Origin: Pyrinomonadaceae bacterium
GTDB taxonomy: Bacteria > Acidobacteriota > Blastocatellia > Pyrinomonadales > Pyrinomonadaceae
Assembly: GCA_030838445.1 (NCBI GenBank)
Contig: JAUZFQ010000082.1
Span: forward strand, 1 to 35,167
Length of the DNA stretch: 35,167 bases
Reading direction: 5' to 3'
Positions 12,354-24,571 of the stretch are shown here, piece after piece. Every line of letters begins with the position of its first letter. The stretch's first letter is position 1. The notes beneath the pieces were generated by a model that worked only from the letters and a program-made list of their open reading frames with translations, was not told the DNA's origin and searched no databases. The translations under genes were made by a program, and so were the position numbers.

Positions 12354-12426
12354 GGCCAGGTAGCTCAGTTGGTAGAGCACCTGACTGAAAATCAGGGTGT
12401 CGGCGGTTCGACTCCGTCCCTGGCCA
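12354..12426 (+). tRNA. tRNA-Phe (anticodon GAA)
   Basis: The 73-nt cloverleaf is complete: acceptor GGCCAGG pairs with CCTGGCC, D-arm GCTC/GAGC, anticodon stem CCTGA/TCAGG with loop CTGAAAA (anticodon GAA), variable GTGTC, and T-arm GGCGG/CCGTC (one G-U pair) with loop TTCGACT. The discriminator base is A. The 3' CCA is not encoded, as TCA follows. Confidence 0.97.
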
Positions 12427-12446
12427 TCAAACAATGCAATAAGTGA

Positions 12447-12473
12447 CGGGCAGCCGCTTGGCTGCCCGTTTCT
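12447..12473 (+). terminator. tRNA-Phe terminator, possibly bidirectional
   Basis: A perfect 9-bp stem (CGGGCAGCC at 12447-12455, GGCTGCCCG at 12460-12468) with a GCTT loop is followed by TTTCTGCTT. The leftward gene remnant ends at 12476, so the hairpin may serve both directions. Confidence 0.8.
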
Positions 12474-12475
12474 GC

Positions 12476-12670
12476 TTAAGTATCGCCTTTCATAAATTGA
12501 ATTAAGTGTTCAACCTCGTGAGCGATAATCCCTAAAAGCTTACTTTTATCAACTGTCGGTTTTATTACTCCTTGCTTAACATCTCCGGTTGACAGTGCCC
12601 CGCCTAAAAGCCGTTTTTCCTCACACCCATCTCCAATAATCAATGTCCCACGGTTAAAGCCGCCCGGGGT
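12476..12670 (-). pseudogene. AT-rich gene remnant with HExxH metallopeptidase-like motif
   Basis: Reading leftward from 12670 to the TAA at 12476 gives 64 residues that look protein-like, including GTLIIGDGCEEKRLL and LGIIAHEVEHLIQF. The HEVEH motif in a hydrophobic helix is the classic zinc-protease pattern. There is no ATG; an in-frame stop (12671-12673) precedes it, and a one-base shift at the C/G run near 12665 would extend it by about ten residues (RQIDPGG). It is therefore best seen as the decayed C-terminal end of a lost gene, or a short gene starting at an internal TTG. Low GC compared with neighbours suggests foreign origin. The parent family is not identified. Confidence 0.45.
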
Positions 12671-12691
12671 CTATCTGTCTAATAAAGGCCA

Positions 12692-12719
12692 CGCAAAAAA
12701 AAACTGCTCTGTGGTAATA
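12692..12719 (+). promoter_or_regulatory. ECF-type promoter-like element, copy 1
   Basis: CGC followed by nine A (12695-12703), TGCTC, then GGTAATA (12713-12719). The CGC to GGTAATA distance is 21 bp, identical to copy 2 at 20010-20037. It lies about 190 bp upstream of the secreted protein gene at 12909. It is the probable target of the sigma factor at 18802-19923. Confidence 0.6.
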
Positions 12720-12759
12720 AGCCGCGCCGCTCGCCCTCTACACCGGTAAGGCAGTCAAG

Positions 12760-12798
12760 TGCGACGCGCGAACCTCTTGAGAGGAACGGACGGTCGCA
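12760..12798 (+). other. Structured 5' leader of the secreted-protein gene
   Basis: In the inferred leader, TGCGAC (12760-12765) can pair with GTCGCA (12793-12798), enclosing a hairpin CCTC-TTGA-GAGG (12773-12784). Another small stem, GAAGC/GCTTC, lies at about 12835-12852. A regulatory role is possible; it does not fit a riboswitch class I know. Confidence 0.3.
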
Positions 12799-12908
12799 AG
12801 CCTGATCGCAAAATTTTCGGGGCGTCGGCCTTCGGAAGCATGACACGGCTTCTCGTCCACGCTTCAAATTAATAACCGTTCATTCTTTGCTAAAGGAGAC
12901 TTCAAGCC

Positions 12909-13904
12909 ATGCGTTACCTCACCCAACTCTCTCGCGCTATCGTCGCCGCGCTCGTCCTCGCCGTCGCTCTCTCCGCGTCCATCACCGCGTCGGCACAGAC
13001 GGTCGTCTACGATGCGGTTAACGACTTCTCAACCGAAATCTCAACCGGCGTCTGGTCATACGGCATGACGACCACGCGCGGCTCACAATTTTCTAATTAC
13101 ACACATCCGTATCTGGATTTCTACCATCCCCCGCTTGCTCGCGGCCTCACCATGTGGAACATGCAGGGGTTCCCCGTAGAGTCCGCGGCGTATGTCGTTC
13201 ATAACGGGACGGGCGCTGGAGTCCAGTATTACCAGACGGTCGCGCACTCGGTCGGGATACTGAACTTGCATCCCGGCGCGGCAGGCGAGAACAGCGTTGT
13301 GCGCTGGACTGCACCGGCCGCCGGGATGTATCAGATCAAGGGTCGCTTCGTCAGCATTGACCGCGGCGTACCGATTCAAGGCCCCTCGGCCGATGTCGCC
13401 GTGCTGCACAACTCCGGCATCAATATCTTTAGCAGCGAACTCGACCACTACGGCGATCAAAGGGTGTTCACCCTCTACGTCAACGTCGCGGTGGGCGACA
13501 CAATTGATTTCTCCGTCGGCTACGGCACAAGCGCGCACTGGGACAATATCTTCGACAGCACGGGCTTGTCCGCTACGATCAAGCCGTTTGAAATCAACGG
13601 GCGGCTCACGGACGATTTTGGAAACGGCGTCGCCGGCAGGGAGATCAGGTTAGAGTTCGGCACGCAATGGATTTCGACGATGACCGACTCTGATGGTAGA
13701 TACAGCTTCAACGGCCCGATGGTCGGGACTAGCTACATCGTCAGGGCGGTAATCACGGATTGCGAGCGCAGGCGCTTCCGGTTTACTCCTGAGACCTACT
13801 CCTTCCCGTCCCTCAACGAACCGCAGACCGCCAACTTCGGCATGACTACCATCAAGTGTCCGCCGAGAACGATTTGCCGGGAAGAGCCGCCCTGCCCGCT
13901 GTAA
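12909..13904 (+). CDS. Secreted protein with carboxypeptidase regulatory-like domain
   Basis: The 331-residue product starts with a clear signal peptide (about 1-29, hydrophobic core AALVLAVALSASITA, cleavage near ASA-Q). The middle (about 35-220) is a beta-rich domain of unknown function beginning VYDAVNDFST. The end (about 225-315) reads GRLTDDFGNGVAGREIRL, then SDGRYSFNGPMVGTSYIV, a carboxypeptidase regulatory-like (transthyretin-type) beta sandwich often found in secreted surface proteins. The short tail is Cys- and Pro-rich. AAGGAG lies about 10 bp upstream of the ATG. The gene has an ECF-type promoter-like element and a long leader, and ends at a strong terminator. The role is probably extracellular or envelope; no enzyme motif is seen. 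Confidence 0.75.
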   Translation: MRYLTQLSRAIVAALVLAVALSASITASAQTVVYDAVNDFSTEISTGVWSYGMTTTRGSQFSNYTHPYLDFYHPPLARGLTMWNMQGFPVESAAYVVHNGTGAGVQYYQTVAHSVGILNLHPGAAGENSVVRWTAPAAGMYQIKGRFVSIDRGVPIQGPSADVAVLHNSGINIFSSELDHYGDQRVFTLYVNVAVGDTIDFSVGYGTSAHWDNIFDSTGLSATIKPFEINGRLTDDFGNGVAGREIRLEFGTQWISTMTDSDGRYSFNGPMVGTSYIVRAVITDCERRRFRFTPETYSFPSLNEPQTANFGMTTIKCPPRTICREEPPCPL

Positions 13905-13972
13905 AATGCGCTAGTCCGATGTGAGTCGCATTCGGCGCGGCAGCAAGAATAGTTCATCGTTTAATCATCGAG

Positions 13973-14021
13973 CGAGGCAGTTGTCTTGAAAAATCTTCTT
14001 CAAGACAACTGCCTCGTTTAA
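13973..14021 (+). terminator. Strong intrinsic terminator with 18-bp perfect stem
   Basis: CGAGGCAGTTGTCTTGAA (13973-13990) is perfectly inverted at 13999-14016 around an 8-nt loop, followed by TTTAA. It separates the secreted protein gene from the CHAT-TPR gene. Confidence 0.85.
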
Positions 14022-14115
14022 TGTTTCCGAGCGCGAAGTGGCAAGCGGCGCTTTAATTGCAAATGTGTTACCGGAAACATACAATCCACGCGTTCCCAAG
14101 TGGAGGTTTCCTCTA

Positions 14116-17097
14116 ATGCCTCGCCTTAACATCAAACTCACTACGGCGTTGATCCTCGCGCTCTATCTCGTTCCTGCCTGTTGCTTCGCACAACAACCGA
14201 CCATCTCTCCGCCGCCTGCGGCGTCCACTCCTGCTGCTGCTGTCTCCTCGTCGTCTTCGCAAACGCCGCCCGCTAATGTTCAGTCAAAAGCTATCGAAGA
14301 TTTCGCGTCGGCTCTCATCTCGGCGTCCACGGAAGAAGAACGCCAAACTCTCCTGCGCGACAAAAAAGAGTTAGTCACAATAGAACTCCGACAGGTTGTG
14401 CACGCGCGCGGCGACCGCGAGCGAGAGGCAGGGCATGCGGCGCAATCGTTTCTCATTTATCAACTCGCCCGACAGATTGCCGGGCGGATTAAAGACATGG
14501 CCGGAGAGGCGCACGCGCTCGAAGAGATCGCGCTGGCCTATTACGAACGCGACGAATATGACGCGGCGATGAGCGCCTTTGAGGAGACGCTGCGCCTTGA
14601 GTCGCAACTGAGGAACGTCCGCAAAGTGGCGGGCACGCTCAACCAGATCGGCATGGTGCATCGCGCCCGTGGCGAATACCCGCAGGCGATTGAGAGTTAT
14701 GCGAAAGCGCAGGCGGTCAACGAGCCGTTGGGCGATCAGAAAGTTTTGATCCAGACGCTCATCAACCTTGGGATCGTCTATCGCCAGAAGGGCGATTACG
14801 AAGCGGCGTTGAACAGTTACCAGCAGGCTTTGAAAGTGCAGGAGGCTCTGGGCGACAAAGGCAGTCTCGCCCGTCTGTTCAACAGCATCGGCAACGTCTA
14901 CTGGTCGCAGGGCAACTACGCGCAGGCGATAGAACATTTTCAAAAGGGACTCAAGCTGGCGGAAGAGATAAAACAAACGCGCACCGTCTCCACTCTGCTC
15001 AATAATCTCGGCGAGTCTTACGCGCTGGCGGGCGACCCGGAAACCGCGCTCTCCTACATGCGCCGGAGCATGGACATCTCCGCAGCCAATCAAGACAAGC
15101 GGCAACTGGCCAGCGTGCTCGACGCGATGGGAAGCGTCGAGCGTCGGCGGGGCGCGACGGCGCGTGCGCTTGAGTCTTATCAGAAGAGTTTGCAGTTGCG
15201 CGAAGAGTTGAAGGACAAGGCCGGTATCTCGGAAGCATTGGGACGCATCGCGCTGGTGCGTCACATGCAGGGCGAAGAGGCGGAGGCGTTGCGGTCGGCT
15301 GAACGCGCGGCGGCCATCGCCAAAGAGATCGGGAAGCGAGAGGTCTTCTGGCGGGCGCGTGCGGTGGCCGGTGAAGCTCATCGTGCGCTTGATCAGACGA
15401 CGGAGGCTCGACTCGCTTTCGACGAAGCCATCGCCGCGATAGAAGATTTGCGCCGACAGGTCGCGGGCGGGGAAGAGAGCCAGCAACGTTATTTTGAAGA
15501 CAAAGTTTCGCCTTACTACGACATGATCGAGTTGCTCGTGCAGGTCGGGAAACCCCACGACGCGCTCGTCTATGCCGAACGCGCCAAGGCGCGCGTGCTC
15601 TTAGACGTGCTGGGGCGCGGGCGGCGCGACGTGAACAAGCACATGACCGCCCCGGAGCGCGAGCGGGAGTTGAAGTTAAGGAGCGAGCTATTCGCGCTCA
15701 ACGCGCAGGTGCAGCGGGAAGGCGCGCGCTCTGAAGTTGATCCGGCGCGTCTCTCCGCCTTGCAGGCGCGGCTGGAAGCGGTGCGGTTGGACTACGACGG
15801 ATTCCAGACGAGCCTGTATGCCGCACACCCCGAGCTGAAAGTGCAGAGGGGCGAAGCGCAGCCTCTCACCACCGAACAACTCTCTGCACTCCTGCCCGAC
15901 ACGGACACAGCCTTCGTTGAATTTGCGGTGACGAAAGAACAAACGTTCGTCTTTGTTCTGACGGCTCGCGCGGTGAAAAGTTCCGCGCGTCAAATCAATG
16001 CTTCAACACGCGTCTCGCCCCAAGTGATGCGGCCGCCGGACGTAGACTTGAACGTGTACCGGCTGCCTGTCACTGCCGCCGCGCTGGCTGAGCGAGTCGA
16101 ACGCTTTCGCACGCAGTTGGCGCGCAGAGACATCTTGTTCGGCGTAGAAGCGCGCACCCTCTACGACCTCTTGCTGAAACCCGCCGAGGGGCAACTGCGC
16201 GGTAAAAAAACGCTGGTCATCGTGCCGGACGGAGAATTGTGGGAGCTACCCTTTCAGGCTTTGCAGCCCGCCCCCGCGCGTTACCTCGTCGAAGATCAAG
16301 CCATCTCTTATGCGCCTTCCTTGAGCGTGCTGCGGGAAATGACGAGGCGCGGGCGCAGCTTAACGGCGACCGCCGCGAAATCTTTACTGGCTATCGGTAA
16401 CCCCGCGCTCGTTGAAGCGACGGTCGCGCCTGCCCGCGTCGCTTTGCTCGGCGACGCTGTTGCGCCGTCGCTGCCCGAAGCGGAACTTCAAGTCAAAGCT
16501 CTGGGACAACTCTACGGCGCGAGCCGGAGCAAGATTTACGTGGGCGCGGAAGCGCGTGAGGAGCGTGTCAAGACCGAGGCGGGCAACTATCAAGTTATTC
16601 ATCTCGCCACGCACGGCGTCTTGAACGACGCCAGCCCGATGTATTCATACGTCATGCTCGCGCGCGAACCACGCATGCGCGCCGGTGGGGAAACAATCGA
16701 GGATGGGTTGCTCGAAGCGTGGGAGTTGATGAACATGGACTTGAAGGCCGAGATGGTTGTGCTGTCCGCGTGCGAAACGGCGCGCGGGCGCGTCTCGTCC
16801 GGCGAAGGCATGATCGGGCTGGCGTGGGCGCTCTTCGTCGCAGGCAGCCCGGTGACGGTCGTCAGCCAGTGGAAAGTCGAATCCGCTGGCACGACCGAAC
16901 TGATGCTCGTCTTTCATCGCAACTTGCAGGCGCAACCGCCCCGCGGACGCGAAGCAACCACGCCTCACATGTCGAAAGCCGAAGCACTGCGCCGCGCCGC
17001 TCTCTCTCTGCTCCGCAGCGAGAAATACTCGCATCCGTTTTACTGGGCAGGGTTCGTGATGATCGGCGACGGCGGCATCAAGTCAGGGATGAAATAG
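14116..17097 (+). CDS. Secreted CHAT-TPR (caspase-fold) protein
   Basis: The 993-residue product starts at ATG 14116 (GGAGG 9 bp upstream) with a signal peptide ending near CFAQQ; a GTG at 14038 in frame is rejected because it would bury that signal. A Pro/Ser/Thr-rich stretch precedes at least six tetratricopeptide repeats (about residues 105-430, for example GEYPQAIESYAKA and GDYEAALNSYQQA), then a helical linker. The C-terminal CHAT domain (about 640-990) has both caspase-clan catalytic residues: His833 in HLATHG and Cys886 in LSACETARG. CHAT proteins are caspase-like cysteine peptidases or scaffolds regulated by their repeats. Export to the periplasm is predicted, which is unusual for a cell-death-type protease. 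It converges on the anti-sigma gene with a 28-bp gap. Confidence 0.9.
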   Translation: MPRLNIKLTTALILALYLVPACCFAQQPTISPPPAASTPAAAVSSSSSQTPPANVQSKAIEDFASALISASTEEERQTLLRDKKELVTIELRQVVHARGDREREAGHAAQSFLIYQLARQIAGRIKDMAGEAHALEEIALAYYERDEYDAAMSAFEETLRLESQLRNVRKVAGTLNQIGMVHRARGEYPQAIESYAKAQAVNEPLGDQKVLIQTLINLGIVYRQKGDYEAALNSYQQALKVQEALGDKGSLARLFNSIGNVYWSQGNYAQAIEHFQKGLKLAEEIKQTRTVSTLLNNLGESYALAGDPETALSYMRRSMDISAANQDKRQLASVLDAMGSVERRRGATARALESYQKSLQLREELKDKAGISEALGRIALVRHMQGEEAEALRSAERAAAIAKEIGKREVFWRARAVAGEAHRALDQTTEARLAFDEAIAAIEDLRRQVAGGEESQQRYFEDKVSPYYDMIELLVQVGKPHDALVYAERAKARVLLDVLGRGRRDVNKHMTAPERERELKLRSELFALNAQVQREGARSEVDPARLSALQARLEAVRLDYDGFQTSLYAAHPELKVQRGEAQPLTTEQLSALLPDTDTAFVEFAVTKEQTFVFVLTARAVKSSARQINASTRVSPQVMRPPDVDLNVYRLPVTAAALAERVERFRTQLARRDILFGVEARTLYDLLLKPAEGQLRGKKTLVIVPDGELWELPFQALQPAPARYLVEDQAISYAPSLSVLREMTRRGRSLTATAAKSLLAIGNPALVEATVAPARVALLGDAVAPSLPEAELQVKALGQLYGASRSKIYVGAEAREERVKTEAGNYQVIHLATHGVLNDASPMYSYVMLAREPRMRAGGETIEDGLLEAWELMNMDLKAEMVVLSACETARGRVSSGEGMIGLAWALFVAGSPVTVVSQWKVESAGTTELMLVFHRNLQAQPPRGREATTPHMSKAEALRRAALSLLRSEKYSHPFYWAGFVMIGDGGIKSGMK

Positions 17098-17125
17098 GAA
17101 GCCGGAAACTGCATTTGCCTCAAAC

Positions 17126-18601
17126 CTAGCGAACACTCTTTAACAACTTGCGTGCGACGGGCGAGCGCGGATTTTGTTTGACCAATTTCTCTAACTCGTC
17201 TCCGGCTTCGTCCAACAGTCCCGCTTTGGCATAGAGCACGCCGAGCGCGAGATGCGAGTTCGGGTTAAGTGCGGCAAACGATTTCAACTCGTCGAACGTC
17301 CGCGCGTCGAGCACTCGAAACTTCGCTTGCGGTGCGGTCGGCGTGGGCGAAGTGATCTCGCGCCCGTCAGGTTCGACGGCGGTCACTTGCCAGAAGTAAG
17401 TCGCGCCGCGCTCAAGCGCGATTGGCGGCGTCCATTCGGTCGCCGTCAGTTTCTCGCTCTGCGCTACCTGTTTGAAATCGGCGTTGACGATGGCAACGGT
17501 ATAGGAAGCCGCACCCGCCAGCGCGTGCCAGCGCAGCACGGGTCGCTGTTCGCGCAAGATTTTGCCGACGGGCGAGACGAGCGCAAAGGGCACGTCGCCC
17601 GCGCCGCCGTCGCCGCCCATCAACACGCCGCCCGCGCCGTTCCTGAGCGAGTCGAGCGAGCGCGGCGTCTGCACGCTCCCGGTTCGCAGCGTTTGCCCGA
17701 CGAGATTCCGCACCGCGGGCGGCAATTCTTCGAGGCCGCGCACATTGCCGCGCCGGTCAAACGCCACTTCCACACCACCGTCGAGGAGCGCGAAGTCGAA
17801 CGTCGCAGGCGCAGTTGAAGGACGCGTTGTTGACGACGGTGGACGCCGCGACGCGGGCGGCGTGATGATAGACTTGGAAGAGTTTCTTGTTGACGAAGCT
17901 ACGTCCTCTTGCGCCGACGTTGATGTGGAATTTTCTACCGCAACTTTATTCTCAACCGCCACGTTACCCGGTGCTGCTCCGGTCGCTTGCGCGGGCGCGT
18001 TCAGGTTCTCGTCGCGCCCGTTCGGTTTGACCTGCGCAAGTTGATCTTGACCCGCGCCGTTGTCCGGCCGCGTCGCAAACCAAGCTCCCAATAAGACGAC
18101 GGCGACCACGACGGCAGCCGCAATCGCATTGGGGAGCGACAATCCGAAAGAGGCGACGGGGTTGAAGGACGCCACCCTTTGCCAGAGTGACTTTGACACG
18201 GCGGCGCGGGCAGGCGCGGTTGCGTTGGCAGGCGTCGTTTCTGAGACTGCGGCAATCGTTTGATAGCGTCGCAAGTCAACTGCGTCACCAGCGCACGCGC
18301 GGCAGACGGCGAGATGGCTCTCGGCGATTTCGCGTTCAACGTCGTCTAAGCTGTCGTCAACGAAGGCTGCGAGTTGCGCGTAAGGCAAGTGCTCCTGCTC
18401 ATCTTCGGGGGCATTGAAATTATTGAAACCGGCGAGCAGGTTGGCGAACGCACCTTGCACATCAACCGCGCGTTCGAGCCGCGCGCGGCACTCGGCACAC
18501 TCGTCGGCATGCGCGTGCGCGGAGAGAAGTTCCTCGCCGCTCAGCCGCCGCCGGCGGTAGCGTTCAATCGCCTCCGCCGAAATGTGCTCGAAAGTTCGCA
18601 T
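17126..18601 (-). CDS. Anti-sigma factor with two zinc motifs, membrane helix and periplasmic TPR end
   Basis: The 491-residue protein has two cytoplasmic zinc-binding anti-sigma motifs of HxxxCxxC type, at His31-Cys35-Cys38 and His96-Cys100-Cys103, so it likely holds a sigma factor inactive. A single membrane helix lies at about 158-177. It is followed by a low-complexity Ser/Thr/Ala/Pro stretch and an outer beta-sandwich-like segment (LVSPVGKILREQRPVLRWHALAGA and FWQVTAVEPDG, fibronectin III-like). The C terminus (about 430-491) is a TPR-like pair of helices. The gene is just downstream of the sigma gene on the same strand, so they probably form a switch that senses an envelope signal. An ECF-type promoter-like element lies about 100 bp upstream of its start. 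Confidence 0.85.
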   Translation of the reverse strand: MRTFEHISAEAIERYRRRRLSGEELLSAHAHADECAECRARLERAVDVQGAFANLLAGFNNFNAPEDEQEHLPYAQLAAFVDDSLDDVEREIAESHLAVCRACAGDAVDLRRYQTIAAVSETTPANATAPARAAVSKSLWQRVASFNPVASFGLSLPNAIAAAVVVAVVLLGAWFATRPDNGAGQDQLAQVKPNGRDENLNAPAQATGAAPGNVAVENKVAVENSTSTSAQEDVASSTRNSSKSIITPPASRRPPSSTTRPSTAPATFDFALLDGGVEVAFDRRGNVRGLEELPPAVRNLVGQTLRTGSVQTPRSLDSLRNGAGGVLMGGDGGAGDVPFALVSPVGKILREQRPVLRWHALAGAASYTVAIVNADFKQVAQSEKLTATEWTPPIALERGATYFWQVTAVEPDGREITSPTPTAPQAKFRVLDARTFDELKSFAALNPNSHLALGVLYAKAGLLDEAGDELEKLVKQNPRSPVARKLLKSVR

Positions 18602-18700
18602 TTCTCCGTTCTTAATCTTTCATGTAGAGGGCTGTGGCGTCCGGGCAAAGGGCAAATGACACCTCTCCCGTCAGTGTTGTAGAAGCGGATTGACGGCTGA

Positions 18701-18728
18701 TATTACCACTGCGCCGAATAATTTTTTG
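18701..18728 (-). promoter_or_regulatory. ECF-type promoter-like element, copy 3 (leftward)
   Basis: On the minus strand a run of six A (18722-18727) and TTATT is followed by GGTAATA (18701-18707), matching copies 1 and 2 in order and approximate spacing (A-tract shifted by about two bases). It would drive the anti-sigma gene, starting about 100 bp upstream of its ATG. Confidence 0.5.
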
Positions 18729-18801
18729 TCGTTCCGTTCTCTCATTGCTCTCTCGTTTCTCACTTTGCGCCATCAAACTTCGACCGGCGCGGCAAGCATC
18801 T

Positions 18802-19923
18802 TCAATATCCCTTCATGCGTCGCATCAGGCGTTCACGCGCCGACTTACGCAGGTTGATAACTTGCTGCCGCGCCAGTCCGAGCAAGGCGGCGATGCGTTT
18901 GTCGTCCAGCGGAAGTTCAGCCCACAATGCAGCGAACGCCTGCGCCGTCATGTTCAATGCGTCGGCCACTGCCTGTAACGTGGCGACGCCCGTCACCGTC
19001 CACAATTCAATGATGCCGTTGCCGTGTTCGTCGCGCATGTTGAGCAGGAGCGCGGCACGCTGGCGCGGCGGCAATTCGATGATCTCATCCCACAGACGCT
19101 TGAGGTAGAGCCGCCGCTCGGTTTCGACGGCGGGGTTGGGGCGCGCGTCGGCCAACTGCGCGTCAGGTTTGTCTTCGCGCCCGCCCGTATCGTCAATCTC
19201 CAACGCCTCGTCCGTGATGCCCCACCAATTGGCGACGACACTCGTCAAGAGATCAATTTCAATCGCGCCGCCCGTCCAAGTGAAGATAGCGTGCAACAGT
19301 TCGACCGCTCGCTTGGGGTCGCGCAGGTCGCCCGACGCTCCGGCTTCGCGCTCGAACACACGCGGGTCTTGGCGCAACTGTTGGAGACGCCGCTCCGCTC
19401 CGGTCGCTCTGACGGAAGCTGTGACGGAAGCAGTCACGTCGCCGACGCGCACCGCCGTCGAAGACGCGTCGCCGCGCCAAGCCTTCAAGCCGCCAAGCCA
19501 CGCGCCGTTCTCCGCCTCCCACAAGGCGAAGTCCGGGCGATGCGTTAAGAGATAGCGCAGGCCGTTCTTCAGACGACGGCGTTGCGGATACTTGCGACTG
19601 GTGTAGCGGTCGAAGGTGTTGAAAGCGGCGGCGGCGACGTAGGCGTTGAAATCTTTGATGGGACGCGAGGCAGAATCTTTGCGAAGGCTGTGCAATCTCT
19701 GCATCAACTGCACCATCACCTCGCCGTAAACGTCTTCGGCCTCTGCACGCGTATCGGTGTGCCGTGAGTTTCCAGACCAGCCCTGACTCTTGTAGCCGAC
19801 AATTTTCTTGACGGTCGGCGCGGCGTAGTCGGCGATGAGCGAGGCGAGCGCGCGCTCGCCTTCGGCCTCGCTCGCAGCGTGCACGAAGGGAACTAACAGC
19901 GGATCAATCTGCTCACTTTCCAT
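18802..19923 (-). CDS. ECF-like sigma-70 family factor with large insert
   Basis: The 373-residue protein has a sigma-2-like region near residues 28-120 (AEDVYGEVMVQLMQRL, then FNAYVAAAAFNTFDRYTSRKYPQ) and a sigma-4-like region at the end (LWDEIIELPPRQRAALLLNMRD; then WAELPLDDKRIAALLGLARQQVINLRKSARERL, a helix-turn-helix). Between them are about 150 residues of unrelated sequence, much more than in ordinary ECF factors (about 190 residues total). The insert may be a regulatory domain. It faces the binding-protein gene divergently and is followed by the anti-sigma gene, so it is probably the regulator of the GGTAATA elements in this window. Sigma assignment rests on the two conserved regions. 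Confidence 0.82.
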   Translation of the reverse strand: MESEQIDPLLVPFVHAASEAEGERALASLIADYAAPTVKKIVGYKSQGWSGNSRHTDTRAEAEDVYGEVMVQLMQRLHSLRKDSASRPIKDFNAYVAAAAFNTFDRYTSRKYPQRRRLKNGLRYLLTHRPDFALWEAENGAWLGGLKAWRGDASSTAVRVGDVTASVTASVRATGAERRLQQLRQDPRVFEREAGASGDLRDPKRAVELLHAIFTWTGGAIEIDLLTSVVANWWGITDEALEIDDTGGREDKPDAQLADARPNPAVETERRLYLKRLWDEIIELPPRQRAALLLNMRDEHGNGIIELWTVTGVATLQAVADALNMTAQAFAALWAELPLDDKRIAALLGLARQQVINLRKSARERLMRRMKGY

Positions 19924-20009
19924 CGCGCTCGCCGTAAAGAAGTGTCGTTTGCTGAACTACTAACTTCTTCCCATCTTCCATAACTGAACCGGCCGGACTT
20001 TTGCACCTC

Positions 20010-20037
20010 CGCAAAAAAAATTGCTCCCCCGGTAATA
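20010..20037 (+). promoter_or_regulatory. ECF-type promoter-like element, copy 2
   Basis: CGC, eight A (20013-20020), TTGCTC, then GGTAATA (20031-20037). It shares the 21-bp CGC to GGTAATA spacing with copy 1. It lies about 190 bp upstream of the binding-protein gene and between it and the divergent sigma gene. Confidence 0.6.
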
Positions 20038-20048
20038 TTCTCCCTCCA

Positions 20049-20164
20049 CACGCCTCTTCTCAAACAGTTGCCGACAAACCGCCCGGCACACAGGTCGGAT
20101 ACCGGTAGCCGTTTGAATGTGAGGCGTGCGCGTCCGAGACTAATTGTGAGCGGGCGGTTTTGTC
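20049..20164 (+). other. Pseudoknot- or switch-like 5' leader RNA
   Basis: Helix 1: CACGCCTC (20049-20056) plus TCAAAC (20060-20065) pairs with GTTTGA (20111-20116) plus GAGGCGTG (20121-20128), 14 pairs with a small internal loop. Helix 2: GACAAACCGCCCG (20073-20085) pairs with CGGGCGGTTTTGTC (20151-20164), 13 pairs with one bulge. The helices cross, so they form a pseudoknot or are mutually exclusive. A third stem, CCGAC (20071-20075)/GTCGG (20094-20098), competes inside. It resembles a riboswitch architecture of no class I recognise. Confidence 0.5.
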
Positions 20165-20224
20165 AGGCGAGCTTTCAAGTAACTATGGATTTCTACTCAA
20201 ACCAGTAAAGGAAAATTAAAGACC

Positions 20225-21280
20225 ATGCGACGACACTCTTACCTCCCCAGCCTGCTTTCGCTTCTCGTTTGCTTCTTCTTCACCGGAGTTGTCTCCCCTG
20301 ACAACGCCCGCGCAGCCGTTCAGAGTTCTTGCGTCCAATATGGAGCGTTCAGCAAAAACGTCTCCTACATCGTTGCCAAGCATGAAGGCTTCTTCGAACG
20401 CGAGGGGCTGACGGTTTGCTACAATCAGGTCAGGTCTTCAGACCAGCAGTACGCCGACCTCTTCGCAGGCCGCTACGACATTATCTCCGCCGCGTCCGAC
20501 ACCGTCATCACGCGCAAGGTCAACCTGAATCTTCCGCTCTCGATGATCGCCGGGCTGGAAATGAATAACGATCAGGTGCTCGCCGTCAACAAGGCGCGCG
20601 GCATCAACTCCTTTGAAGACCTGCGCGGCAAACCAATCGCGGTTGACGCGCCCGACACGGGCTTCTCCTTCCTTCTGCGAAAGATTCTCGCCGAGCACGG
20701 ACTGCTGCTAGAGAACGGCGATTATACGCTTCAACCCATCGGCGGGGTCGCGCTCCGCTACGCCGCGTTGCAAGCCGGACAGACGGCGAGCGGCCAGCCG
20801 GTCTATGCCTCGATGATCAATTACCCGTTCGCGGCGCAACTGCACGAACCCGTCACGGTTCTGGCGCGCGCCGAAGATTACGTCTTCCCGTATCAGGGCG
20901 GCGCGTTCGCCGTCCGGCACGACTATTCGGCCAGCCACCCCGACACGATCACACACTTCCTGCGCGCGATGATTGATGGCGGCGAGTTTGCGCGTCGCCC
21001 GCGTAACCGCGCGCTCGTCATCGGCTACATCGCCGCCGAGTTGGGTGTGACCAACGACATCGCCGAACGCGAGTTGAGTGCGTCGCTCGACCGTCAAACC
21101 GGCGAGAACCACAAGGCTAAAATTGACAAGCAAGCACTCATCGGCACAATCGAACTCCGGCAGGAGTTCAACGGCTTCACCGCGCCGCTCGGCGACATCA
21201 ACCAACTCGTCCAGCCCTGTGAGAATTGTCTCTACGACGACCGATTCTGGAAGGCGGCGATAGGCAATTCAAACAATTGA
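20225..21280 (+). CDS. Secreted NMT1/THI5-type substrate-binding protein
   Basis: The 351-residue product has an N-terminal signal peptide (about 1-31, core LLSLLVCFFFTGVV). The rest resembles periplasmic NMT1/THI5-like solute-binding proteins (SsuA/ThiY type): SYIVAKHEGFFEREGL, DLFAGRYDIISAASDTVI, and the domain hinge SFEDLRGKPIAVDAPDTG. Such proteins deliver pyrimidine, sulfonate or similar ligands to an ABC transporter, but no permease or ATPase gene is nearby, so a lone sensor or an orphan binding role is possible. AAAGGAAAATTAAAGACC precedes the ATG, with AAAGGA about 12 bp away. The gene has an ECF-type promoter-like site, a structured leader, and a strong terminator. Confidence 0.8.
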   Translation: MRRHSYLPSLLSLLVCFFFTGVVSPDNARAAVQSSCVQYGAFSKNVSYIVAKHEGFFEREGLTVCYNQVRSSDQQYADLFAGRYDIISAASDTVITRKVNLNLPLSMIAGLEMNNDQVLAVNKARGINSFEDLRGKPIAVDAPDTGFSFLLRKILAEHGLLLENGDYTLQPIGGVALRYAALQAGQTASGQPVYASMINYPFAAQLHEPVTVLARAEDYVFPYQGGAFAVRHDYSASHPDTITHFLRAMIDGGEFARRPRNRALVIGYIAAELGVTNDIAERELSASLDRQTGENHKAKIDKQALIGTIELRQEFNGFTAPLGDINQLVQPCENCLYDDRFWKAAIGNSNN

Positions 21281-21301
21281 CATCCGCTAAACCAACTTCC
21301 G

Positions 21302-21334
21302 AAGGGCGTGCGGCAACGTTGCCGCCGCCCTTTT
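21302..21334 (+). terminator. Intrinsic terminator after the binding-protein gene
   Basis: AAGGGCG plus GCGGCAAC pairs with GTTGCCGC plus CGCCCTT with one bulged T, followed by TTTT. It lies about 20 bp after the stop and ahead of the convergent caspase-like gene. Confidence 0.8.
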
Positions 21335-21390
21335 GAGCCGCCCCGGCGTCAGCGTGGGCTTCGTCTCTCAGACCGTGCCGCACTATCACG

Positions 21391-22713
21391 CTAGCGAATG
21401 ACGGAGACTTCGAGGCCGGAACTGAGTCCGGGCAGGGCGCGTGGGTTCTGTTTGTTACGGGTTTCTTTACGGACGCGGTTACTGACGTAATCGAACAGTT
21501 CGCCCGCTGTGACGACTTTGTCCGTGTTCGTGTCCGCCAGACCGCGCAAGCCTTCGAGCAAAGCCCAGGTGAAGACGCCGTGACCGCCGCCCCAGAGCGT
21601 GCTTTCGGCGGAGGTTTCGTTGACATCCGAAGAAGTCAAAACGGCGCGACCTTCCTGGTTGAAAAGCTCTTTGGCGAGAAAGTCGTTGGCGTTGTTGCCG
21701 CCGAGCACGAGTTGACCCGCGTCGCTTACCTGAGCCGGTTTTTTGCTGCCGCCTGGGCTGGCGGGCTTTTCGTTGAGGAGGAGTCCGCGTTGTCCGGCGG
21801 CATCGGGGGATGGTTTGGGAAGGATTTTCGTCCCGCTCACCCCCGCGCTGTGACAGGTGTCGAGCAGGAACACGGCGCGTTTCGCCAGCAGCTTTTGGTC
21901 AATCATCTGTTTCAGTTCGATCATCGGCAGCGCGGTGTTTTTCAAATCCGCAACTTTAGAATCGTGAACCAGATAATATAGATTTCGCTTGTCGTAAGGG
22001 TCAGGCGAACCGTGACCGGCGAGAAAAAACAGAATCATGTCCGTCGAGGCCGCACGGGTCAGAAACCGCGCCAGCGAATCGCGCACCGCGCTGAGAGTGG
22101 CGCGTTCGTTGGTCAGAAACAAGATGTCGTTCGAGTTGAAACCGCCCTGCGTCAGCAGTTGAAAGAGAGCCTCCGCGTCTTTGTCGGCAAACGCCAGATC
22201 GGTCAAGCCCGCGTCGTTGTTTTTGTATTCGGAAACGCCGATGATGACGGCGAATTTGCGCCCTGAAAATTTCAGCGGGTCTTTGACGGCGACTTGCTTC
22301 GCGTCGGTCAGCATCACAAACGAAGCGAAATAACGTGTGCCGTCTTTAGTTTTGGCTTCGATCTCAAAGACGTTTTTGTTGCCGTCGAGTTTGAAACCGA
22401 CGAGACGGTTCAAGTCGCAGAGCAGCATTTTGCCAGACGAAGCAGCGCGTTGATGACAGACGGTTGTGGCCGCTTTGGTGTTGACGACGACTTTGATGTC
22501 GCTCCAATTCATCATGGCGGCATACGGGTCTGCGATCCAGAATTTGACGATGTTGACGTCCGTGCGGGCGATATAATTATTGACTTTGCGAAGCTGTCCT
22601 GTGTTCAGTTCGGGCAGTTCGAGCGCAAACGGAGTCCGGTCTTGCCCGAACGCCGCCGTCGAAATAAACATCAACGCTGACAGCGCGAAAATTTTAGTTA
22701 AGTTATGACACAT
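21391..22713 (-). CDS. Secreted caspase-like (C14) protein
   Basis: I start at the ATG at 22713, giving 440 residues beginning with a signal peptide (hydrophobic segment to about residue 24, AFGQ); a longer in-frame start at 22770 only reads through simple repeat DNA. An N-terminal domain (about 25-145) precedes the caspase fold: KFAVIIGVSEYKNNDAGL at 153-170, catalytic His234 in LAGHGSPD and catalytic Cys287 in FLLDTCHSAG. Both dyad residues are intact, so protease activity is plausible. The C-terminal part (TSSDVNETSAES, HGVFTWALLEGL) is also typical of prokaryotic caspase homologues. No Shine-Dalgarno sequence is clear. It converges on the binding-protein gene and lies near a second caspase-clan protein (CHAT), so the neighbourhood is rich in this class. 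Confidence 0.88.
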   Translation of the reverse strand: MCHNLTKIFALSALMFISTAAFGQDRTPFALELPELNTGQLRKVNNYIARTDVNIVKFWIADPYAAMMNWSDIKVVVNTKAATTVCHQRAASSGKMLLCDLNRLVGFKLDGNKNVFEIEAKTKDGTRYFASFVMLTDAKQVAVKDPLKFSGRKFAVIIGVSEYKNNDAGLTDLAFADKDAEALFQLLTQGGFNSNDILFLTNERATLSAVRDSLARFLTRAASTDMILFFLAGHGSPDPYDKRNLYYLVHDSKVADLKNTALPMIELKQMIDQKLLAKRAVFLLDTCHSAGVSGTKILPKPSPDAAGQRGLLLNEKPASPGGSKKPAQVSDAGQLVLGGNNANDFLAKELFNQEGRAVLTSSDVNETSAESTLWGGGHGVFTWALLEGLRGLADTNTDKVVTAGELFDYVSNRVRKETRNKQNPRALPGLSSGLEVSVIR

Positions 22714-22730
22714 CGGATTTGAGGGATGAA

Positions 22731-22783
22731 GGATGAGGGATGGATGAAAGACATTGCTTGTTGTTTTCATTCATCCCTCATCC
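22731..22783. repeat. Simple-word inverted repeat between M48 and caspase genes
   Basis: The 19-base arm at 22731-22749 (GGATGAGGGATGGATGAAA) is inverted at 22765-22783 with one mismatch and a 15-base loop. It is built from GGATGA words, like the other intergenic repeats here. It may form a hairpin in the transcript between the genes. Confidence 0.7.
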
Positions 22784-22789
22784 GTTGTT

Positions 22790-24571
22790 TCACTGTTTCC
22801 CGCGCGGCCGCGCCGGAGTGGCGGCGGGTTGCGGGACGTTTTGCGCGGTGGGTTGCGAACTGCCGCCCGCGACGCGAATCGGGTCAATGTCTCTGGTGGC
22901 GACGTTCATCGCCGGAGTGGCGCGGTAAGTCGTCGCGCCCATGTCTTGCATGAAGTCGTAGATGAACTCCATGTTCGGCGGCAACGTACCGGCGTTTTCG
23001 CGTTGGTAGATCGTCACGTAGGTTTTCAGATCGTTGATGATCGAGTTGATCTCGTTTGGGTTGCGTTCGGTCAGGCGCAACATGGCGCGATAGAGATACG
23101 GCTCGGCGATGGTTTGGCGTTGGTCGAGCGCGACGGCCTGCGACAGATTTTCCAGCGCCTTGGAAACTTCCGTCGGATTGCGTGCGGTCTGTTTCAAGAC
23201 CTTGCCGTAATAATAGTAAGCCGACGGGTCGCTGCTGCGGTTGGCAATCGAATCTTCCAAATTGGTGCGAGCCATCTGGAACATATCGAACTGAAACGCG
23301 CGGATTCCGTTGTCGCGTTTGATGAGAGCCATGACGTTGGAGAACTCCGGCTCACCGGCGATGAGTTCGCCCGCATCGAGTTTTTTCTGAATCTCAGGCG
23401 CAAGCGTTTCGTTCAGCATGCGGGCGATGCCGCGTGCGCCGGTCGCCGGCATATTTTTGCCTTTGTCACCTCCACCGCCGGTGAAGGCTTTGCGGTTTTC
23501 CGCCACGTTCACCGAACCGGCAAGCGCACCGTTTTTGATGAACTGCGCCGAAGCCGAGCCATAAGCCGCGAGACGTTCCTTGACACGGTCGGGCGCGGCG
23601 ATAAATCCGGTTTGTGTACGCGGGTCGGCGGTCATCGTCGCCATTCGTTCGTAAAATTTCGGGACTTCGCGGACGTCGTAATTGCGGTTGAACATGTAAC
23701 GCATAGACTCGATGTCTGCTTCGTCTTCCTGCGCTTTTTCCCAGTTGACGACGCCGGGCGAGAAAAGTTTGCTGACGGTCGGGGCGAGCGCGATTGCCAG
23801 ATATGCGCCGTTCACCGCACCGTCACCGCCGCCCGCGATGCCGCCGATGACGCCGCCGACGATGCTGCCGATGATGGCGGCTTTGCGGGCTTTGGATTCC
23901 TGGTAAGCCTGCGCGCCGAGCGAAACCAGCGCGTCTTCAAACCAGTGTTCCTTTTCGACGTGAGAGATTTCGTGACCCAGAATATAGGCAAGCTGTGCTT
24001 CATTATCGACGGCGGCGAGATAGCCCGTCGAGATGTAAACCGTGCCCGTGGACATCGAACGCGCTTCGGGAACGGGGTTTTGCAGGATGCGGAAGGCGTA
24101 CAAGTTTTTCGAGCTGGCGGGAACGAGCGACTGCCCGACGCGGTTGATGTAATCCTGCGCCAGAGGGTTGTCGTAGAGCGTGTCTTCAAAAATCAACTTT
24201 TCGCCATCGCGGTTAACGAGTTTGGCGTTTGAGGGACGCATGTTGATGCTGTAGGCGGATTCGATATGACTGCGCCGGATGTCGCGGTAGCGATTATCAA
24301 CTGCATCTTTAAAAACCGGATCGGTGTTGTACTTGTTCCGCGAATACGACTTGATCTCTTGATAGAGACGTTCGTTTTTCGCATCTATCTTCGCGGCTTT
24401 TTCTTCTTGTTTATCAGCTTTCTCCTGACGCTTTTGTTCATCTTTGCGTTGCTTCTCGGCTTGTTTGTCATCCTGCGCCGCCGCAGGTAAAGCGATTGCC
24501 AACACTGCGGCGAAAATTAGAATCGTCAGGCGGAAGGTTTTGAAAAGTTGTTTGAGATTCGCTGCCAACAT
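22790..24571 (-). CDS. M48-family metallopeptidase with TPR-like C terminus
   Basis: The 593-residue protein starts with a signal peptide or anchor (about 11-32, ILIFAAVLAIALPAAA) followed by a highly charged Lys/Glu/Asp/Gln helix to about residue 66. The protease domain has the zinc motif HEISH at 200-204, with a third ligand candidate Glu284 (EDEADIESM). Small-residue helices at about 230-262 (IGSIVGGVIGGIAGG) likely insert in a membrane. The C-terminal half carries helical repeats reading like TPRs (AYYYYGKVLKQTARNPTEVSKALENLSQAV). The arrangement resembles BepA/YfgC-type periplasmic M48 quality-control proteases, which also end in TPRs. AGGAG about 9 bp upstream supports the ATG at 24571. 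The very end (PARPRGKQ) is proline-rich. Confidence 0.88.
   Translation of the reverse strand: MLAANLKQLFKTFRLTILIFAAVLAIALPAAAQDDKQAEKQRKDEQKRQEKADKQEEKAAKIDAKNERLYQEIKSYSRNKYNTDPVFKDAVDNRYRDIRRSHIESAYSINMRPSNAKLVNRDGEKLIFEDTLYDNPLAQDYINRVGQSLVPASSKNLYAFRILQNPVPEARSMSTGTVYISTGYLAAVDNEAQLAYILGHEISHVEKEHWFEDALVSLGAQAYQESKARKAAIIGSIVGGVIGGIAGGGDGAVNGAYLAIALAPTVSKLFSPGVVNWEKAQEDEADIESMRYMFNRNYDVREVPKFYERMATMTADPRTQTGFIAAPDRVKERLAAYGSASAQFIKNGALAGSVNVAENRKAFTGGGGDKGKNMPATGARGIARMLNETLAPEIQKKLDAGELIAGEPEFSNVMALIKRDNGIRAFQFDMFQMARTNLEDSIANRSSDPSAYYYYGKVLKQTARNPTEVSKALENLSQAVALDQRQTIAEPYLYRAMLRLTERNPNEINSIINDLKTYVTIYQRENAGTLPPNMEFIYDFMQDMGATTYRATPAMNVATRDIDPIRVAGGSSQPTAQNVPQPAATPARPRGKQ

Follow-up and report, generated by a model that had tools for sequence, protein, structure and literature searches.

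Upstream of a gene for an NMT1/THI5-like solute-binding protein, in the 35,167-nucleotide stretch of soil Acidobacteriota DNA analysed here (the window), two long helices were proposed to interlock, which raises the question whether the leader of this gene is a pseudoknot or a two-state RNA switch. The sequence-only reading had described one helix of 14 bp and a second of 13 bp with a bulge, and both were found, crossing in the way it had described (Table 1). The 14 bp of helix 1 are composed of P1 and P2 (8 + 6 bp), and the helix runs on for 7 bp more (GTTGCCG 20067-20073 with CGGTAGC 20103-20109, including two G-U pairs). The 5′ strand of helix 2 (P3) lies inside the loop of helix 1, so that the two helices cross. 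Helix 2 is in turn the core of hairpin B, which is imperfect and ~32 bp long, with 32 pairs listed between 20066-20100 and 20132-20173. The whole picture is thus one of two long overlapping hairpins, A (20049-20128) and B (20066-20173); the 7-bp extension of helix 1 and the part of hairpin B beyond the core of helix 2 had been missed before, when the cores were seen. An origin of the arms by tandem duplication was considered and rejected, as 121 and 74 of 1000 shuffles aligned as well as X-Y and X′-Y′, respectively, which leaves neither alignment significant. The best single reading, to which we assign a probability of roughly 0.4, is that positions 20045-20175 form a structured 5′ leader, which acts in cis on the solute-binding-protein gene as a bistable RNA.

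Table 1: Features of the leader and of the gene downstream (positions in the window).
Feature	Position	Strand	Remarks
TAATAT, candidate -10 element	20033-20038	+	read from sequence; no good -35 hexamer
P1 5′ strand, CACGCCTC	20049-20056	+	partner GAGGCGTG 20121-20128, 8 bp
P2 5′ strand, UCAAAC (DNA TCAAAC)	20060-20065	+	partner GTTTGA 20111-20116, 6 bp
Hairpin B 5′ arm, long imperfect	20066-20100	+	duplex energy ~-42 to -43 kcal/mol
P2 extension 5′ strand (state A), also in hairpin B base	20067-20073	+	segment contested by both full folds
Crossing helix P3 5′ strand, hairpin B core, GACAAACCGCCCG	20073-20085	+	partner CGGGCGGTTTTGTC 20151-20164, 13 bp, U161 bulged
Hairpin A 3′ side	20103-20128	+	P2 extension 20103-20109, P2 20111-20116, P1 20121-20128
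Hairpin B 3′ arm	20132-20173	+	includes CGGGCGGUUUUGUC 20151-20164
UCUACUCAAAC, 10/11 copy of 20055-20065	20192-20202	+	just upstream of ribosome site
AAAGGAAA, likely Shine-Dalgarno region	20206-20213	+	outside both hairpins
Orphan NMT1/THI5-like (SsuA-like) solute-binding protein	20225-21280	+	351 aa, apparent signal peptide; Pfam PF09084, E 3.5e-17

Comparison with shuffled and real sequence demonstrated that both hairpins are stronger than expected by chance. Hairpin A alone gave a z score of -4.85 and hairpin B alone one of -3.39, each equalled by 1 of 1000 dinucleotide shuffles. The crossing-duplex score with internal loops allowed was -65.3, compared to a shuffle mean of -40.6 (sd 3.9), and was reached by none of 400 shuffles. 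With ungapped stems only, the summed strength of the best crossing pair was reached by 4 of 1000 dinucleotide shuffles and in 134 of 2804 overlapping real windows. When a coarser version of the crossing score was applied to both strands of the 35-kb contig, the total strength was matched by 25 of 1062 windows, and no GC-matched window of the same contig (0 of 252) equalled the crossing score. Scanning the contig with a 90-nt window yielded z ≤ -4.8 in 15 of 1560 cases, the strongest being other intergenic inverted repeats. The feature exceeds local chance, yet it is not unique among the strong inverted repeats of the 35 kb. Nearly as probable as the bistable leader is an explanation that assigns no RNA function to this DNA: overlapping inverted repeats that arose fortuitously in GC-rich intergenic DNA between divergent genes, neutral and picked out by a pattern scan of 35 kb. 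The contig windows with equally strong crossing duplexes, for ungapped stems as well, speak for this explanation, whereas the GC-matched windows, the 400 shuffles and the presence of two overlapping hairpins, each at the 1 in 1000 level, speak against it.

A further argument against neutral repeats is the strand specificity of the pairing. All four non-Watson-Crick pairs of the two hairpins are G-U on the plus strand and A-C mismatches on the minus strand, and the plus strand scored better (-65.3 compared to -59.6). The G-U bias together with the stronger fold points to an RNA of the same sense as the downstream gene, and the structure probably acts at the level of RNA. The start of such a transcript might lie at ~20045, just before hairpin A, judging from the candidate -10 element ~10 nt upstream of P1. 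A consensus promoter scan listed no plus-strand promoter; its sole promoter-like match was on the minus strand (TTGAGA 20063-20058 / AATATT 20039-20034).

To what extent the two hairpins compete was judged from predicted energies. For 20045-20175 the best fold containing P1 was calculated at -49.1 kcal/mol and the best fold containing P3 at -49.3 kcal/mol, equal predicted energies that carry an uncertainty of a few kcal/mol. Ensemble shares of A and B were 0.25 and 0.75 for this segment at 37°C and shifted to 0.61 and 0.39 once the leader was folded up to 20224; lower temperature was predicted to favour P1 and higher temperature P3. Both full folds need 20067-20073 and they are isoenergetic, which makes a two-state leader RNA the most fitting mechanical interpretation. 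A bistable leader RNA is characterized by two folds that exclude each other, lie close in energy and each exceed chance, and such folds are predicted here. Fold predictions for the growing transcript kept hairpin A at every length tested, consistent with hairpin A forming first. The cores of P1 + P2 and of P3 share no bases, the P2 extension alone touching P3 at 20073, and a pseudoknot of the cores is thus sterically conceivable. Its parts were estimated at -32.0 kcal/mol for the P1/P2 state in which the P3 strands were kept unpaired and -19.5 kcal/mol for the P3 duplex, before any loop penalty, so that a pseudoknot of both cores is possible at comparable estimated energy. The earlier proposal of a pseudoknot or a two-state topology has thermodynamic support only, from two hairpins that exclude each other and are predicted to be equally stable.

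If the leader is bistable, hairpin A would be complete first during transcription, and hairpin B, which is longer and of the same stability, could displace it once the 3′ arm of B has been made; alternatively, the cores of A and B may coexist as a pseudoknot. The choice between A and B, on which some trigger might act, would then set gene expression, possibly by changing how accessible the region in front of the ribosome site is. Paired within A, GUUUGA (20111-20116) would be released in B and could there pair with UCAAAC 20197-20202, part of the repeat that precedes the likely Shine-Dalgarno region; this pairing is weak, and the repeat might be due to chance. RNA stability or pausing are other conceivable routes from the A/B choice to expression. 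Short open reading frames such as MDFYSNQ (ATG 20185) lack a convincing ribosome site and were rejected as leader peptides.

No standard expression platform is evident, because the terminator scan found no intrinsic terminator and neither hairpin covers the ribosome site. This bears directly on a transcription attenuator, in which hairpin B (AAACCGCCCG/CGGGCGGUUUU) would halt transcription and hairpin A would prevent it. The GC-rich core of B is followed by UUUUGUC and competition between A and B would fit, but besides the negative terminator scan the core stem closes a loop of 65 nt, and the only four U residues lie within the stem rather than after it. The GC-rich stem with a subsequent U run that defines an intrinsic terminator or attenuator is thus not present, and we regard attenuation as very improbable. 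The leader resembles bistable leader RNAs and riboswitch expression platforms in having two strong, exclusive and nearly isoenergetic hairpins in front of a gene, the 5′ one formed first; it differs from them in that neither a sensor domain nor a terminator nor sequestration of the ribosome site was identified and in being a single example without covariation. With HDV-like and other pseudoknotted small ribozymes it shares the H-type topology, a first helix crossed by a second one downstream, but not the short spacers between helices, the compact core geometry or a match in Rfam.

The sequence-only reading had further suggested a ligand-sensing riboswitch, with no known class evident. In agreement with the latter point, Rfam cmscan matched no family in the whole window at the gathering threshold and none in 19924-20300 at E values up to 5, so that the leader contains no recognisable Rfam riboswitch aptamer. 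The TPP riboswitch (Rfam THI element) is the class expected before NMT1/THI5 genes of the thiamine pathway. Our leader likewise precedes the gene of a periplasmic binding protein of the NMT1/THI5-like type, but unlike a TPP riboswitch it gave no Rfam match even at the relaxed threshold. The link to thiamine is weak in any case, as the protein also resembles SsuA-like sulfonate-binding proteins; in NCBIfam the nearest family is SsuA_fam (E 5e-19), yet the score is far below the family cut-off.

Relatives of the leader were searched for at several levels. BLAST showed that it is single-copy in its own genome, and in this and 119 genomes of the family only fragments of ≤25 nt were found elsewhere; one such fragment match (L016) lies inside an unrelated gene according to the open reading frame list and was discarded. 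With one copy and none in the 119 family genomes, the leader is not a dispersed palindromic repeat or MITE. Covariance models were built from one sequence each, R1 for hairpin A and R2 for hairpin B. They yielded only chance-level matches in 118 family genomes (best E 0.009 for A and 0.08 for B) and no match at E 0.01-0.02 in 396 genomes of the phylum, results that may miss diverged relatives because a single-sequence model is insensitive. Collections of plasmid, phage and viral sequences contained no match to the leader. The leaders of NMT1 genes with ~21-30% identity (L012-L015, L022-L026) contained neither an R1 match worth following nor an Rfam match. As no second leader copy was found in any of the sets searched, there is no covariation to draw on.

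That conservation could not be shown in the family and phylum searches also favours functionless repeats, and it counts against a riboswitch of a new class, whose pseudoknotted state would bind a metabolite that the solute-binding protein helps to import. The crossing-helix topology immediately upstream of a transport-type gene, the plausible combined energy of the pseudoknot and the absence of an Rfam match speak for such a riboswitch. Established riboswitch classes recur across genomes, whereas this leader is single-copy, with no relative detected by the covariance models in ~500 Acidobacteriota genomes. Its gene is an orphan, with no recognisable permease or ATPase among the neighbouring open reading frames scanned that would hint at a ligand, and the expression platform of a riboswitch, a terminator or a sequestered ribosome site, is not evident. 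We found no positive evidence for ligand sensing and consider a new riboswitch class very unlikely. Slimmer still are the prospects of a lineage-restricted, pseudoknotted two-state riboswitch, unrelated to known classes, that controls the orphan solute-binding protein. None of the papers searched joined NMT1, riboswitch and Acidobacteria.

Analysis of the gene itself gave two close relatives only, both of them remnants without leader, while the remaining homologues have ~30% identity or less. In the genome G001 of the same genus (L020), only residues 226-351 remain (~92% identical), joined directly to the 3′ region of a tRNA-Phe gene, and the counterpart of window positions 12478-20905, leader included, is missing. 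The second remnant (G006, L021) is a fragment of approximately residues 189-276 at a contig start, followed by unrelated sequence. Comparison of G001 contig C14 (L020/L072) with window positions 12382-12477 and 20906-24281 shows the 3′ part of tRNA-Phe directly followed by the last third of the NMT1 gene, its 3′ portion. The tRNA gene of G001 is incomplete and adjoins a segment with TIR-like/pentapeptide and HNH-like open reading frames, named from their translations only. This arrangement suggests an integration/deletion hotspot at tRNA-Phe.

Such a hotspot next to the region would suit an element that acts as DNA, either an operator or the ends of a mobile element in a promoter region common to the binding-protein gene and the divergently oriented ECF-sigma-like gene (18802-19923, minus strand). 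Its location between two divergent genes, where it overlaps the minus-strand promoter-like match, points in the same direction. However, the single genomic copy means that there is no repeat family, a short symmetric operator-like dyad is absent, and the long imperfect arms contain pairs of the G-U type that are possible only in a plus-strand RNA. A DNA-level element thus appears unlikely, though less so than an attenuator or a new riboswitch class.

Should the bistable leader switch as the energetics suggest, it would be an acidobacterial example of a two-state regulatory RNA, placed in front of the gene of an orphan binding protein. At present it is a single candidate, of value mainly as a clearly defined case for testing when related leaders turn up in metagenomes.

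Among the open reading frames scanned around the binding-protein gene, no permease, ATPase or other transporter partner was recognisable; besides the ECF-sigma-like gene, its neighbours are a caspase-domain gene and an M48 peptidase. The surrounding region (14038-24571) comprises a cluster of TPR-CHAT protease-like, zf-HC2, ECF-sigma-like, caspase-domain (C14) and M48 peptidase genes. Two further inverted repeats were observed in the contig. A near-perfect 21-bp hairpin (CGAGGCAGTTGTCTTGAA...TTCAAGACAACTGCCTCG, 13970-14020) precedes the CHAT/TPR gene and has no other copy in the genome. The second, GGGATGAAGGATGAGGGATGGATGAA...TTCATTCATCCCTCATCC at 22720-22783, occurs in many copies on both strands of this genome and its relatives and is a dispersed REP-like palindrome; it overlaps the listed start of the caspase-domain open reading frame.
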